DNA of 64,000 nt, from assembly GCF_902832885.1 (NCBI RefSeq), contig NZ_CADFDK010000002.1:1-64000 (forward strand), read 5' to 3'. Shown piece after piece: positions 32,706 to 37,341 of the stretch. Below the pieces are notes generated by a model. The model searched no databases. It had not been told where the DNA came from and saw only the letters and a list, made by a program, of their open reading frames with translations. Within the stretch, counting starts at the first letter, position 1; each line of letters begins with the position of its first letter. This stretch comes from Burkholderia seminalis DSM 23518. Lineage in GTDB: Bacteria; Pseudomonadota; Gammaproteobacteria; Burkholderiales; Burkholderiaceae. Made by a program: the position numbers and the translations under genes.

Positions 32706-32771
32706 GCGACCGCCGCCGACAGCGTGGACTGCCCGGCGCCACCGATGACCGAATGCAACCGAGGAGCACTT

Positions 32772-34733
32772 ATGGAAGATACGTTTCGACTGACGGGGAA
32801 GGTGTTGTACCTGACTCGCGATCCGGACACGATCGATGCGCAGTTCGCGGGGCGCGCGCTGACGCGGCAGGAGGCCGGTGCGTTGCGCGATGACGTGTCG
32901 ACCGACGAGATCACGCCGGTCACCGTCATGCTGACCTACGACGAGCGGCTCGGCGAGTTTCCGTACGTCGGCTTCAAGGCGGGCGGCCGCTTACCGATCG
33001 GGAATCACGCGGTGCGTGACGGCGGCTTCCAGGTGACCGTGGCCGGCAAGCGATACGGCAAGGGCTCGTCGCGCGAATCGGCACCGCTGGCCGAACTGTC
33101 GGCCGGCATCCGCCTGATCGTCGCGGAAAGCTTCGAGCGGATCTACCAGCAGAACTGCGACAACATCGGCATCCTCACCACGACCGATTTCTCCGTGCTG
33201 GACCGCCTGCTCGCGGGTGAAGCGATCCCGATCGACGTGTTCCTGCAGGGCCGGGATGCGCTCACGCAACGGATTATCCGCAGCGGCGGGCTGCTCGCCT
33301 ACAGCAAGACCGTCCGATGGCCGAACGCGGACGAGCGCACCGTGCCGGCCGACGGGGGCGCGGGCGCGGCGCACGGGCCGCGTACGCTCGTCGAGAAGAT
33401 TCTCGCACGCCACCTTCATCCGGAAATGCAGGGGGCATCGCGAGGAGACGGCGTTTTCGTCGCCGCGGACTGGCGCTTCAGCCACGACTACTTCACCGGC
33501 ATGTGTGCGTATCTGATGCACCGAGCGTTCGGCAAACCGGCGGAGCTGCACGATCCGGACCGCATCATCGCGTTCCACGATCATCTCGCACTTGCGCGGC
33601 AGAGCATTCCGCACGTGAGAGACGGGCTGCTGCCCGGGATCGCGAATCTCGTCGCCGGGCACAGCGAATTCGCACGCGATTACCCGGTGCGCGCACACGG
33701 TGCGTTGCCGGACGCGCCCGGCTCGGAAGGCATTTGCCATTCGATGATGGCGGAGCAGTACGCGTTGCCGGGGCAGATCGTCGCGGGCACCGATTCGCAT
33801 ACGCCGCACGCCGGTGCGTTGGGTAGCCTGGCATTCGGCGCCGGCGCCACCGAGATCGCCAACAGTTGGGTCACGGGTTATGTTCGCTGCCGGATTCCGG
33901 AAACGTTGCGGATCGAGGTTGACGGCGCGCTGCGTCCCGGCGTGACGGCGAAAGACATCGTGCTCTATCTGCTGCAGATGGACGAGATCCGCTCCGGCGG
34001 CGCGATTGGCCTGGTATTTGAATACGGCGGTTCAGCCGTGCGCGCGTTGCCGGTCGACGAGCGCGCGACGCTGACGAACATGGTCGCCGAACTGGGCGGG
34101 TTCACGGGGATCGTCGAACCCGATGCACGGACCGTTGCGTTCCTGAAAGAACGTCGCGGCGTGGACTTCGTGCTCGAGCCGTGGATGAGAAGCGACCCCG
34201 ATGCCGTCTACCGCGACGTGATCCACATCGATGCGCGCGAGATCGAGCCGATGCTGGCGCGACCGGGCGACCCGAGCAACGGTGTCGCGGTGAGCGGGCT
34301 GGCCGATAACGTCGCGATCGACGTGGCTTACGGCGGATCGTGCACGGCCGGCAAGCAGGCGGACTTCGACTTTTATCACGAAGTGCTGCGGTGGGGCGTC
34401 GATCGCGGCATGCGCGTGGCACCGACGACACGCTTGTTCCTGCAGTTCGGCACGATGCACGTGCGCGAATACTGCGCGGAACGCGGCTATCTTCCCACGT
34501 TCGAGCAGGCCGGCGTGACGCTCGTGATGCCGGGCTGCGGTGCGTGCGCGAACTGCGGGCCGGGTCAATCGGCCACCAAGGACGATGTGACGATCAGTGC
34601 GATCAACCGCAATTTTCCGGGGCGCTCCGGCCCCGGGGACGTATGGCTGGCCAGTCCGTACACGGTTGCCGCGAGCGCGCTGGCCGGCCGTATCGTGACG
34701 TTCGAAGCGCTGCGCGCGCTGCACGCCGCGTGA
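32772..34733 (+). CDS. Single-chain aconitase-family enzyme with N-terminal swivel domain
   Basis: A 653-residue hydro-lyase in which the LeuD-type swivel domain comes first (DDVSTDEITPVTVM, KRYGKGSSRESAPLAE, QNCDNIGIL within residues 35-160) and the LeuC-type catalytic part second (AGTDSHTPHAGALGSLAFG, GSCTAGK, and MPGCGACANCGPG for the cluster cysteines). Ordinary AcnA has the swivel at the C-terminus. Swivel-first order recalls AcnB, but the helical AcnB N-domain is missing. It is the second aconitase system in the cluster besides the LeuC/LeuD pair, so two isomerisation steps are likely. GAGGAG precedes the ATG. Confidence 0.87.
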   Translation: MEDTFRLTGKVLYLTRDPDTIDAQFAGRALTRQEAGALRDDVSTDEITPVTVMLTYDERLGEFPYVGFKAGGRLPIGNHAVRDGGFQVTVAGKRYGKGSSRESAPLAELSAGIRLIVAESFERIYQQNCDNIGILTTTDFSVLDRLLAGEAIPIDVFLQGRDALTQRIIRSGGLLAYSKTVRWPNADERTVPADGGAGAAHGPRTLVEKILARHLHPEMQGASRGDGVFVAADWRFSHDYFTGMCAYLMHRAFGKPAELHDPDRIIAFHDHLALARQSIPHVRDGLLPGIANLVAGHSEFARDYPVRAHGALPDAPGSEGICHSMMAEQYALPGQIVAGTDSHTPHAGALGSLAFGAGATEIANSWVTGYVRCRIPETLRIEVDGALRPGVTAKDIVLYLLQMDEIRSGGAIGLVFEYGGSAVRALPVDERATLTNMVAELGGFTGIVEPDARTVAFLKERRGVDFVLEPWMRSDPDAVYRDVIHIDAREIEPMLARPGDPSNGVAVSGLADNVAIDVAYGGSCTAGKQADFDFYHEVLRWGVDRGMRVAPTTRLFLQFGTMHVREYCAERGYLPTFEQAGVTLVMPGCGACANCGPGQSATKDDVTISAINRNFPGRSGPGDVWLASPYTVAASALAGRIVTFEALRALHAA

Positions 34734-35066
34734 GCAAAGCGGCTTCTTCGCGGTTGAAGCGTGCGGTTTCGACGGGGGCGTTGAACGCCGGCATCGAGTC
34801 GACCGTGGATCGCGCGATGGTGTGGGTACGGCTGGGCGCGTGTATGTCGACATGCCAGGCGCCGCGCAGCGCCGCCATGAAATGGTGGAGATCCATGGGA
34901 GGCGTTGCGTTGCGAGTGAGGTCGGGATTAGACGCAACCGGCACTCGATCGGGGTTACCGCCCGCCATGTCGTCGTGAGGCGGCGAACATACGCGCGTGA
35001 GGATTTGCTGTCGCGATACCGAACCGGCGGGCGGCGCGCGTAACGCATCGCGATTCGAACGCATGA
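34734..35066. other. Intergenic region upstream of the Thr leader, no gene seen
   Basis: About 330 bp between the aconitase stop and the leader promoter. I see no gene; short Arg-rich frames look like shadows. Confidence 0.4.
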
Positions 35067-35095
35067 TTGACAGGCCGCACGAGGTTGACTAGATT
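35067..35095 (+). promoter_or_regulatory. Predicted sigma70-type promoter of the leader
   Basis: TTGACA (35067-35072), a 17-base spacer and TAGATT (35090-35095) make a good housekeeping promoter. Transcription would begin close to 35102, the A of the leader ATG, so the leader mRNA may be leaderless. This would fit the lack of a well-placed ribosome-binding site. Confidence 0.55.
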
Positions 35096-35101
35096 CACCC
35101 C

Positions 35102-35341
35102 ATGAACGCACGTTTCGTCACGACCACCACGACCACCACCACGACCGCCAACGGCGGGCCGGGGGGGAGGTTGCACGTCGTAGATTCATGCGTCACATCA
35201 TCCCCAGGAGCCCCGCCGGCAACGGACGGGGCTTTTTTCATGCTCCGTTCGACCGGCACCCCAGTCAACGGAGAACGTGATGGACGATTTCGATCATCGA
35301 GTGCTTGGCAGCAGACTCGATCTGTTTCACCAGCAGGATGA
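35102..35341 (+). CDS. Threonine-rich leader peptide (attenuator reading frame)
   Basis: The frame starts MNARFV, then has nine consecutive Thr codons (35120-35146), then ANGGPGG. It resembles the regulatory peptide ThrL of enteric bacteria in having a Thr run followed by a Gly/Asn tail. Read as given, the frame stays open through the terminator and into the synthetase gene to 35341. One base fewer in the seven-G run (35161-35167) would give a TAG stop at 35181 and a 25-residue peptide. Either the ribosome slips there or the run length varies. A peptide function is not implied; the Thr codons are the sensor. Confidence 0.7.
   Translation: MNARFVTTTTTTTTTANGGPGGRLHVVDSCVTSSPGAPPATDGAFFMLRSTGTPVNGERDGRFRSSSAWQQTRSVSPAG
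35152..35218 (+). promoter_or_regulatory. Predicted antiterminator pairing
   Basis: CGGCGGG (35152-35158) can pair perfectly with CCCGCCG (35212-35218), which contains most of the left arm of the terminator. The following G-run can also pair with CCCC at 35202-35205. A ribosome stalled on the Thr codons would leave this pairing free to form and let transcription continue into the synthetase. Confidence 0.5.
35210..35238 (+). terminator. Rho-independent attenuator terminator before the ThrRS-like gene
   Basis: GCCCCG (35210-35215) pairs with CGGGGC (35227-35232). An inner CCG/CGG pair closes a GCAA tetraloop with one bulged A. Six T residues follow (35233-35238). It lies after the leader and 42 bp before the synthetase start, in the right place to stop transcription when Thr-tRNA is plentiful. 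Confidence 0.88.
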
Positions 35342-36500
35342 AAGTCCGGGCGCCATCTTCTGGCATCCGCGCGGCATGGTCCTTTACCGGACCGTCGAGG
35401 AATACATCCGCGCCAGGATGCGGCAAGCCGGCTTCGCCGAAGTCAGGACACCGCAGATCGTGTCGCGCGGCCTGTGGGAGCAGAGCGGCCACTGGGAGAA
35501 GTTCGGGAAGAACATGTTCTCGCTCGAGAGCGACAGCCACCCATACTGCCTCAAGCCGATGAGCTGCCCGTGCCATGTGCAGCTCTTCAGGAAGGGCGTT
35601 CGTTCGTATCGCGACCTGCCGGTCCGCTACGCGGAATTCGGCGCGGTGCACCGCGCGGAGCCGTCGGGCGCGCTGCACGGGCTGATGCGCGCCCGCGCCT
35701 TCACGCAGGACGATGCGCATGTGCTGTGCCTGCCCGATCAGGTCGAGGTCGAAGTCGCGCGATTCTGCGTGCTGCTGAAGACGATCTACGCGGACTTCGG
35801 GTTCGACGGGTTCGACGTCGCGCTGTCGACGAGGCCGGCGGTTCGCGCGGGCGACGATGCGGTCTGGGATCGGGCGGAAGCGATGCTGGCGTCCGCCGCC
35901 CGAGCGGCCGGCCTGGATTTCGCGATGCTGCCCGGGGAAGGCGCGTTCTACGGCCCCAAACTCGAGTTTCACCTGCTCGACCGTCAGGGGCGGAAGTGGC
36001 AGTGCGGGACGATCCAGCTCGACTTCGTGTTGCCGGAGCGGCTTGGCGCAACCTATGTCGCGGAAGACGGCGTGCGCGCGACGCCCGTCATGCTGCATCA
36101 CGCGGTGCTGGGCAGCCTCGAGCGGTTCATCGGCATCCTGCTCGAGCATTACGAGGGATGGTTGCCGACGTGGCTGGCCCCCGACCAGATCGTCGTCGCG
36201 AACATCGGGCAGGACGAACGCGCATTTGCGGACAACACGGCGTTCGCGTTCGAGGACATCGGCTGCCGGGTGCTGCGGGATTTCCGTGCCGAGCGCTTGC
36301 CGCGCAAGATCTTCGACGCGCGGGAACTCGCTGCGCCGATCGTCGCGGTGGCCGGGCGGAAGGAAGCGCTGGCCGGCGAGGTGTCGCTGCGGATGAGGAA
36401 CGGGGAGCAGCACGTGCTGTCGATCGACGCTGCGCTTGCGTACCTGAAGCGGCATGTGCGTGCACCCTCCGCGACGCGTGTGTTTCGCTCGCCGGTTTGA
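35280..36500 (+). CDS. Threonyl-tRNA synthetase lacking TGS and editing domains
   Basis: A 406-residue class II synthetase containing only the catalytic core (residues 1-290) and the anticodon-binding domain (300-400). Housekeeping ThrRS is about 635-640 residues with N-terminal TGS and editing domains, both absent here. The zinc ligands are kept as Cys96, His147 and His273; motif 2 Arg125 and motif 3 Arg282 are also present. The usual PMNCPGH block reads PMSCPCH and the motif 2 loop reads GAVHRAEPSG, changes close to the threonine pocket. Start at 35280 with GGAG upstream. A Thr-codon attenuator controls it. Likely a resistance or special-purpose second ThrRS. Confidence 0.92.
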   Translation: MDDFDHRVLGSRLDLFHQQDESPGAIFWHPRGMVLYRTVEEYIRARMRQAGFAEVRTPQIVSRGLWEQSGHWEKFGKNMFSLESDSHPYCLKPMSCPCHVQLFRKGVRSYRDLPVRYAEFGAVHRAEPSGALHGLMRARAFTQDDAHVLCLPDQVEVEVARFCVLLKTIYADFGFDGFDVALSTRPAVRAGDDAVWDRAEAMLASAARAAGLDFAMLPGEGAFYGPKLEFHLLDRQGRKWQCGTIQLDFVLPERLGATYVAEDGVRATPVMLHHAVLGSLERFIGILLEHYEGWLPTWLAPDQIVVANIGQDERAFADNTAFAFEDIGCRVLRDFRAERLPRKIFDARELAAPIVAVAGRKEALAGEVSLRMRNGEQHVLSIDAALAYLKRHVRAPSATRVFRSPV

Positions 36501-36606: not shown

Positions 36607-37341
36607 CTACCCGCGTGCGATGACCCGCGCCTTCACGCACTTGAGCCACAGCCGGGCGGCCCCGACACCGCCCGCGACCGGAATCCGCGGCAGCAGGAAC
36701 GGATCGTCGGCCGCGCCGGCACATCCGCGCCGGGTCGTCGTCGCATTGTCGTATCCGGCGTCCGCGACCTGGTCGCGTACCCGCGCATCTAGGTCGCCGT
36801 ACGGGTAGCAGAACGATTCGACGGGCTGGCCGCTCAATGCCTCGAGGCGCCGCTTCGACTCGCTTACCTGATGATCCGACTCGAACCCGGGCACCTGCGA
36901 CAGCGCGACGTGATCGAGCGTATGCGAGCCGACTTCATGGCCATGGTCGCGCCACATGAGCATGTCCTCGCATGTCATCAGCGGTGAGCGCGCGGTGTCG
37001 TCAGCCGCATCCCAGTCGTTCTGGCCGCCGAAGCGGCCGGCGACGAAATAGCAGGTCGCGGTGAACCCGAGCGCGTCGAGCACCGGCATCGCATGGGTCA
37101 GTACGTTGCGAAAACCGTCGTCGAACGAAATGCCGAAGACCTTGCCGCTGCGCTCGCCGCGCAGATACGGCCGCAGTTCACGCACGCTCAGCCCGCGGTA
37201 GCCGAGCCGCTTGAACAGCGTCATCTGGCGGCGGAACGCGTCCGGTGCGACGCTCAGGCCGCGTAGCCGGTCGGCCGGCGGCGGCAACGGGCGTATCTGG
37301 TGATACATCAGGATCGGATGGCGCGTGGCGGAAAGAAACAT
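36607..37341 (-). CDS. Polysaccharide deacetylase (NodB homology)
   Basis: A 244-residue NodB-fold deacetylase. Motif 1 is GISFDDGFRN with the catalytic and metal Asp; motif 2 is HEVGSHTLDHVALS with the metal His pair; then FCYPYGDLDARVRDQV. No signal peptide is evident, so it probably acts on a lipid-linked or nucleotide sugar at the cytoplasmic side. It is the last gene of a leftward operon with a glycosyltransferase and a methyltransferase-like protein, 24 bp after the latter. Confidence 0.92.
   Translation of the reverse strand: MFLSATRHPILMYHQIRPLPPPADRLRGLSVAPDAFRRQMTLFKRLGYRGLSVRELRPYLRGERSGKVFGISFDDGFRNVLTHAMPVLDALGFTATCYFVAGRFGGQNDWDAADDTARSPLMTCEDMLMWRDHGHEVGSHTLDHVALSQVPGFESDHQVSESKRRLEALSGQPVESFCYPYGDLDARVRDQVADAGYDNATTTRRGCAGAADDPFLLPRIPVAGGVGAARLWLKCVKARVIARG

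Follow-up and report, generated by a model that had tools for sequence, protein, structure and literature searches.

We propose that a short second threonyl-tRNA synthetase (ThrRS) of Burkholderia seminalis DSM 23518 is controlled by a ribosome-mediated transcription attenuator that reads the charging of threonine tRNA, an interpretation drawn from sequence analysis to which we assign a probability of roughly 0.84. The synthetase, called ThrRS2 here (406/407 amino acids), and its leader lie on contig NZ_CADFDK010000002.1. Positions 1–64,000 of its forward strand constitute the window, that is, the whole 64,000-nucleotide stretch analysed, and window coordinates are used throughout. Ribosome-mediated attenuation is preferred because it explains together a run of threonine codons, the fixed distances around it and two mutually exclusive hairpins. 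An initial annotation of this DNA had listed a promoter, an ATG, nine threonine codons, a 7-nucleotide block, a stem with a GNRA loop and six T residues, all of them correct by direct reading. It had also suggested that threonine-codon attenuation operates before a second ThrRS, a logic that now finds support in the fixed codon geometry, the covariation of the terminator and a predicted exclusive hairpin.

Anatomy of the leader

The elements of the locus are as follows.

35067..35095, plus strand: sigma-70-type promoter TTGACA-N17-TAGATT, with TTGACA at 35067–35072 and TAGATT at 35090–35095, read directly
35102..35341, plus strand: leader open reading frame (ORF) as read in the window, 79 codons and a stop, overlapping the start of the synthetase gene out of frame
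35120..35146, plus strand: nine consecutive threonine codons, the proposed sensor, read directly (4–10 threonine codons in relatives)
35152..35158, plus strand: block 2, CGGCGGG, which can pair with 35212–35218 (antiterminator) or with the codons immediately upstream
35199..35205, plus strand: C-rich strand that makes up the 3' arm of the helix inside the antiterminator, its partner being the G-run after block 2
35210..35232, plus strand: terminator stem with a GNRA loop (GCAA) and one bulged A, from sequence and folding
35233..35238, plus strand: six T residues after the stem, read directly
35243..35273, plus strand: second hairpin, CTCCGTT (35243–35249) with AACGGAG (35267–35273), covering the Shine-Dalgarno sequence, a predicted fold with z −1.63
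35280..36500, plus strand: ThrRS2, catalytic and anticodon-binding domains only, without TGS or editing domains (TIGR00418, PF00587, PF03129)

The promoter matches at 10 of 12 positions and is the single sigma-70-like match in 34734–35290, a region in which shuffled sequences average 0.2 such matches. Six nucleotides separate the end of its −10 box from the leader ATG at 35102. A run of nine ACN codons occurs at one place in the 64-kb window and in none of 100 shuffles. Block 2 is complementary over 7 nt to CCCGCCG at 35212–35218, and the terminator hairpin that contains the latter stretch has a predicted energy of −22.5 kcal/mol with a z of −5.45, the leader as a whole folding with a z of −2.21. 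From the T-run to the synthetase ATG at 35280 there are 41 nt, with GTG 35277 as an alternative start. The terminator rule of a promoter and terminator scan found no match in 34734–35290, against 0.5 for shuffles; the bulged A in the stem presumably explains the miss. The comparative data are the strongest evidence that the leader exceeds chance.

Conservation of the leader among orthologues

The compared set consists of 50 distinct orthologues from Burkholderia, Caballeronia, Paraburkholderia, an Acidocella metagenome-assembled genome (MAG) and the families f41 and f48. Left out of it were L134, which shares a genome with L059, L004–L008, whose upstream sequences duplicate included loci, L139 and L140, which are other full-length paralogues, and a copy in G212 whose gene is split over two contigs. 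Absence of the leader from orthologous loci had been named as a reason to abandon the idea of attenuation; the leader is present at all 50. Each has a leader ORF with 4–10 threonine codons before block 2, the longest uninterrupted run being 3–10 codons with a mode of 6, and in the 49 leaders other than that of the window the peptide is 25–32 codons long. The third codon ahead of block 2 is a threonine codon in 49/50, the exception (L137) having proline at this position. In 47/49 non-window leaders the stop codon begins 27 nt downstream of the start of block 2. Translated, block 2 reads Gly-Gly in 48 leaders, Cys-Gly in L009 and Arg-Arg in L144; GGCGGG itself is exact in 45/50, though both glycine third positions are free to vary. 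Given this fixed geometry, the idea that the threonine codons are low-complexity noise was dropped.

A similar promoter, with the end of the −10 box 4–8 nt before the ATG, is found by a permissive pattern in 48/50 leaders, and that of the Acidocella leader fits by eye. With so little room between the −10 box and the ATG, the transcript probably has no 5' untranslated region, and the leader ORF would be translated as a leaderless message. Sinorhizobium trpL provides a precedent for a leaderless leader ORF.

Predicted terminator and antiterminator folds

In alignment A1 the terminator was scored over 15 pairs, with 90.2% of cells paired and six pairs changed on both sides. Cells changed on both sides number 43, against 17.6 ± 2.8 in shuffles, and the covariation score is 0.167 (shuffles: 0.096 ± 0.008). 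Among the slid controls, the best has 57.3% of cells paired and a score of 0.083. The terminator loop is of the GNRA type in 43/50 leaders, and at least five T residues follow the core stem directly in 18/50, namely the 16 Burkholderia-type leaders, L113 and L144.

Folding predicts an alternative hairpin that is mutually exclusive with this terminator. Its core, the pairing of GGCGGG with CCCGCC, is intact in 97.7% of cells, and when the terminator 3' arm is omitted 5 or 6 of the six core pairs appear in the minimum-energy fold of all 50 leaders. The inner helix, which is built from several pair types, has a mean z of −1.9 relative to shuffles and falls below −1.5 in 31/50. An arm-swapping comparison was added for this helix: the native arms give −13.9, as against −12.69 ± 0.33 when arms are swapped between sequences, and the lowest of 5000 permutations is −13.93.

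A model for the switch

How would such a leader work? Transcription would begin at the leader ATG or right beside it, and a ribosome would bind the very 5' end of the message. When charged threonine tRNA is plentiful, the ribosome would move past the threonine codons as far as the stop codon, 27 nt downstream of where GGCGGG begins, and cover that block, the terminator hairpin would form and transcription would end. When it is short, the ribosome would stall on the threonine codons and leave GGCGGG free to pair with CCCGCC of the terminator 5' arm, and the transcript would continue into the synthetase gene. The hairpin over the ribosome-binding site may act as an added translational gate. Anatomy, conservation and predicted folds are the material of this model, and from them we infer stalling, termination, induction and an active enzyme.

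Several observations weigh against it. One leader (L129) lacks a clear promoter. Fewer than five T residues follow the core stem directly in 32/50 leaders, and the U-tracts of most copies that are not of Burkholderia type are weak. The initial annotation had looked to relatives for covariation of both hairpins, an expectation borne out for the terminator and disappointed for the antiterminator, whose core is nearly invariant and offers no covariation. RNAalifold, run on a MAFFT alignment of the antiterminator, returned five core pairs and no covarying pairs, probably because the variable arms are unaligned; the arm swapping supplemented it. The core also forms in ~90% of shuffles that keep both core arms, so the count of 50/50 says little by itself. 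For the window the antiterminator z is −2.32 against full shuffles and −0.62 against shuffles that keep the ends. Swapping inner-helix arms within lineages yields −13.56 ± 0.21, so the signal shrinks and much of it reflects lineage. Finally, when the complete sequence beginning with block 2 and ending with the terminator is folded, the terminator results in 11/13 cases and the antiterminator in L091 and L144; since it mostly folds into the terminator, antitermination would have to be kinetic.

The hairpin over the ribosome-binding site invites a different emphasis, in which control is mainly translational: CTCCGT/ACGGAG would occlude the ribosome-binding site, and the hairpin upstream would be no more than a stabiliser, somewhat like the E. 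coli thrS operator, which acts at the level of translation. At least six Watson-Crick pairs are available to this hairpin in 29/50 leaders, against 4.65 expected from shuffles, and the shortage of T residues after the stem in 32/50 points the same way. The six-pair helix is nevertheless absent in 21/50, and the proposal leaves unexplained both the T6 of the Burkholderia-type leaders and the constant spacing between the threonine codons and a block complementary to a terminator arm; we consider it quite improbable. The terminator loop and 3' arm also hold a Shine-Dalgarno-like AACGGA, which could pair with the anti-Shine-Dalgarno strand of the hairpin in 34/50 leaders (7.66 expected), a count that is not independent of the 29/50. 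Under attenuation, it is our conjecture that AACGGA takes up the anti-Shine-Dalgarno strand once the antiterminator forms, and in this way couples antitermination to translation.

A further point against the model concerns the window itself. Its leader frame has no stop before the terminator and ends at TGA 35339–35341, inside the synthetase gene; with a stop ahead of the terminator in 49/50 leaders, it is the sole exception. Possibly this copy is leaky or expressed constitutively, or else its unusual frame could stem from an error in the assembly. Its leader could even be a relic that no longer regulates and leaves ThrRS2 constitutive, a view compatible with attenuation in the relatives and prompted by a stop that 49/49 other leaders have. 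We find this rather unlikely, given that the remaining parts of the window leader are intact, that the ThrRS2 gene is of full length and that the deviating frame may come from the assembly.

The ThrRS2 enzyme

ThrRS2 matches the threonine--tRNA ligase profile TIGR00418 with 432 bits (cut-off 383.65) over positions 172–556 of 565. In a Pfam scan it gave PF00587 and PF03129 only, neither TGS nor tRNA_SAD, consistent with a TIGR00418 match that starts at 172. It is 53% identical to the full-length ThrRS of the same genome, which lies on another contig. The next gene-like long ORF downstream (36607–37341) is on the opposite strand, so that ThrRS2 looks monocistronic in the window.

Residues are given in E. 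coli numbering, by alignment offset. All 50 ThrRS2 proteins retain the zinc ligands C334, H385 and H511 as well as the motif arginines R363 and R520, which makes an active enzyme likely. Beside the zinc ligands, position 333 is Ser in 50/50 ThrRS2 and position 512 is His in 50/50 (96 and 275 in the numbering of the window protein), as against Asn and Arg, respectively, in 29/29 housekeeping ThrRS, these 29 being the sequences at hand and not a balanced sample. At position 575, which belongs to the anticodon domain, 49/50 ThrRS2 and 2/29 housekeeping enzymes carry a residue other than Asn. A pocket that evades inhibitors is possible in ThrRS2. According to one report, ObaO is the obafluorin self-resistance ThrRS, marked by Ser463/Met489, and second ThrRS genes occur in some Proteobacteria, Burkholderia diffusa included (PMC11252418). 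ThrRS2 resembles ObaO in being a second ThrRS, and differs in lacking the N-terminal domains and in keeping Gly463 and Leu489 unchanged in 50/50. With Ser463/Met489 absent, immunity of the ObaO type was ruled out for ThrRS2.

Distribution and phylogeny

ThrRS2 is patchily distributed. At 60% identity or more it occurs in 18/64 other genomes of the genus, and at an E-value of 1e-147 or better in 43/398 genomes of the family, 17 of the same genus among them, and in 8/398 of the phylum. Four of these eight belong to families f41 and f48 of another class and are 56–60% identical, with frames of 416–441 amino acids. Carriers include Burkholderia arboris, B. ubonensis, B. pseudomultivorans, two further Burkholderia species, Paraburkholderia ginsengisoli and the Acidocella MAG, with Caballeronia SBC1 added by a sequence match. 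In a tree of 82 proteins, made by a quick method and containing long branches, a branch with a Shimodaira–Hasegawa-like approximate likelihood-ratio test (SH-aLRT) value of 100 separates the 50 ThrRS2 from all other sequences, and a branch with support 96 joins them to 11 housekeeping ThrRS, which come almost exclusively from MAGs named Alphaproteobacteria. The patchy spread and this placement suggest that ThrRS2 was spread by horizontal transfer.

Other second ThrRS genes were seen along the way. Two same-genus genomes carry a different one in a long open frame (L139 in G050, L140 in G014), 50–52% identical to ThrRS2, outside its branch in the tree and with Gly463 kept. Annotated thrS genes also reside on several plasmids, those of Klebsiella and Thioclava among them.

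The same leader before other genes

A covariance model, R1, was built from the 50 leaders. The window scores 97.1 bits with it, and the housekeeping thrS of this genome gives no match even at a threshold of E = 1. Within the family, 185/398 genomes have matches with E ≤ 0.001, weak ones included. We took 40 loci outside the 50 from the family list, picking them by hand across strong and weaker matches, and inspected the downstream genes; Pfam was applied to one or two per kind of gene (MFS_1, Isochorismatase, ABM, DUF2917) and the others were assigned by tblastn or by reading. Isochorismatase-fold hydrolases follow 22 of the 40 leaders, four of them broken or altered, including the copy in the window's genome, and ABM-domain proteins follow five, one of them broken. 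Seven precede DUF2917-like proteins and lack a threonine run. The remainder comprise one full-length ThrRS, one decayed ThrRS2 followed by a major facilitator superfamily (MFS) gene, one ThrRS2 at a contig end, two loci with an MFS remnant only and one without a recognised gene.

The full-length ThrRS (L198) is the second of its genome, 59% identical to the other one, and falls outside the ThrRS2 branch, so that two ThrRS lineages own this leader. Additional to the 40, three leaders (L191–L193) stand before an MFS gene of 417–419 codons, whose protein has the efflux transporters MdtH and YdeE as best NCBIfam matches, far under their cut-offs. The MFS and ThrRS2 loci are 84–87% identical over 250–289 columns that take in promoter, leader and the first 20–26 codons of ThrRS2. 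Moreover, leader, decayed ThrRS2 and MFS gene lie in a row at L196 (G027), and L194 and L195 consist of leader and MFS remnant. From the shared leader and first codons, and from the gene order at L196, it seems that the MFS pump inherited the switch, taking over the leader and first codons when ThrRS2 was lost.

In the phylum, R1 matches at 1e-4 in 28/329 genomes. Among 21 phylum loci that were read, three outside the family (L238, L241 and L244) are threonine leaders before the same type of hydrolase, and many weaker matches resemble chance terminators.

Some related loci are recorded here as separate observations. The second leader of the window's genome (G000:C6:306203-306314; L155, L226) stands before the broken isochorismatase-fold hydrolase and lacks the ATG of its relatives. 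A similar design of block 2 and terminator without threonine runs is found before DUF2917-like proteins at L156, L157, L218–L223, L225 and L259, and, in family f48, at L240, whose gene has no assignment, and before other small proteins at L242 and L243. Upstream of the leader, window positions 32724–34733 encode an aconitase-like protein in which, by profile matches, the small (LeuD-like) domain precedes the large one.

Relation to known systems

Leader-peptide attenuation of an auxiliary synthetase is a known principle. Vecchione and Sello reportedly described, in 2010, an auxiliary, antibiotic-resistant tryptophanyl-tRNA synthetase under ribosome-mediated attenuation, encoded by trpRS1 of Streptomyces coelicolor. 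Both systems place a spare synthetase under ribosome-mediated transcriptional attenuation. That of ThrRS2 uses threonine instead of tryptophan, belongs to Proteobacteria, serves an enzyme reduced to catalytic and anticodon domains and has a leader shared with transporter and hydrolase genes. In the enteric thr operon, threonine-codon attenuation governs biosynthesis genes. The enteric leader (RF00506) likewise has a threonine codon run before a terminator with an alternative fold, and differs in what it controls, biosynthesis there and ThrRS2 in the window. As a family assignment for the window leader, Rfam Thr_leader RF00506 was rejected at 13.9 bits and E 5.4, the gathering score being 55. 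The pheM-pheST operon of E. coli is a synthetase operon under leader-peptide attenuation, alike in that respect, with phenylalanine codons and a housekeeping enzyme.

The two ThrRS genes of Bacillus subtilis are said to be under transcriptional antitermination; the mechanism there is the T-box, an RNA that binds tRNA directly. Antitermination would be common to both cases, by a T-box in B. subtilis and by the proposed leader peptide here. An Rfam scan of the window gave no family at gathering score, T-box included, and a T-box was discarded for the window leader, as it is not among the six weak families listed at E up to 10 in 34950–35350. For bacilli, a further paper describes histidine leader peptides upstream of hisZ and of a hisS paralogue (PMC2965389), which resemble the present case as leader peptides before a synthetase paralogue, with another amino acid and in another phylum. 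Leader-peptide control of a ThrRS had been put forward as new. A literature search, with subscription papers mostly outside its reach, found no report of a leader-controlled ThrRS or of this leader family and no threonine leaders before isochorismatase or efflux genes; any novelty would lie in the ThrRS case and not in the principle, which has precedents.

What does the leader respond to?

One candidate signal for the same attenuator is plain threonine shortage, ThrRS2 then being a starvation synthetase and not a response to inhibitors. A sensor of charging cannot distinguish starvation from inhibition, and the residues changed in ObaO, G463 and L489, are unaltered in 50/50 ThrRS2. The company of the leader speaks for something else: it also stands before MFS genes with sub-threshold efflux matches, isochorismatase-fold hydrolases and ABM proteins, and no biosynthesis gene, for threonine or otherwise, is present among the 39 of the 40 examined loci that have a recognised gene. 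We regard starvation as a real possibility, short of an even chance.

Alternatively, ThrRS2 might take over, as in cyanobacteria, from a housekeeping ThrRS that lack of zinc or oxidation has put out of action; the leader would then detect the fall in charging. The editing site of ThrRS is oxidation-sensitive, and having no editing domain would remove it. A second ThrRS of Anabaena, T2, is discussed in relation to zinc shortage (PMC4787780). All three zinc ligands are kept in 50/50 ThrRS2, which speaks against this explanation, and we consider it unlikely.

The genes that share the leader, a spare synthetase twice, a pump and a hydrolase, tilt the balance towards an answer to ThrRS poisons, a reading that we still judge less likely than not. 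Tentatively, and with the odds clearly against the full scheme, we picture the leader as a mobile, threonine-specific charging alarm that has become attached to varied countermeasures against natural ThrRS poisons. These would be bypass, by ThrRS2 and independently by a full-length second ThrRS, efflux, by the MFS pump, and possibly inactivation, by the isochorismatase-fold hydrolases and ABM proteins. Ser333 and His512 would be part of inhibitor evasion, and the hairpin over the ribosome-binding site together with the Shine-Dalgarno-like stretch would couple antitermination to translation.

What would this mean for the carriers? If the proposal is true, threonine would be the second amino acid, after tryptophan in Streptomyces, for which a charge-sensing switch on a spare enzyme protects an essential synthetase, and the bacteria that carry it are predicted to meet ThrRS poisons often enough to maintain an alarm of their own against them. 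Being short and conserved, the leader is readily coupled to a reporter, which makes the identity of the poisons, and the targets of the hydrolase, the ABM protein and the MFS pump, testable.
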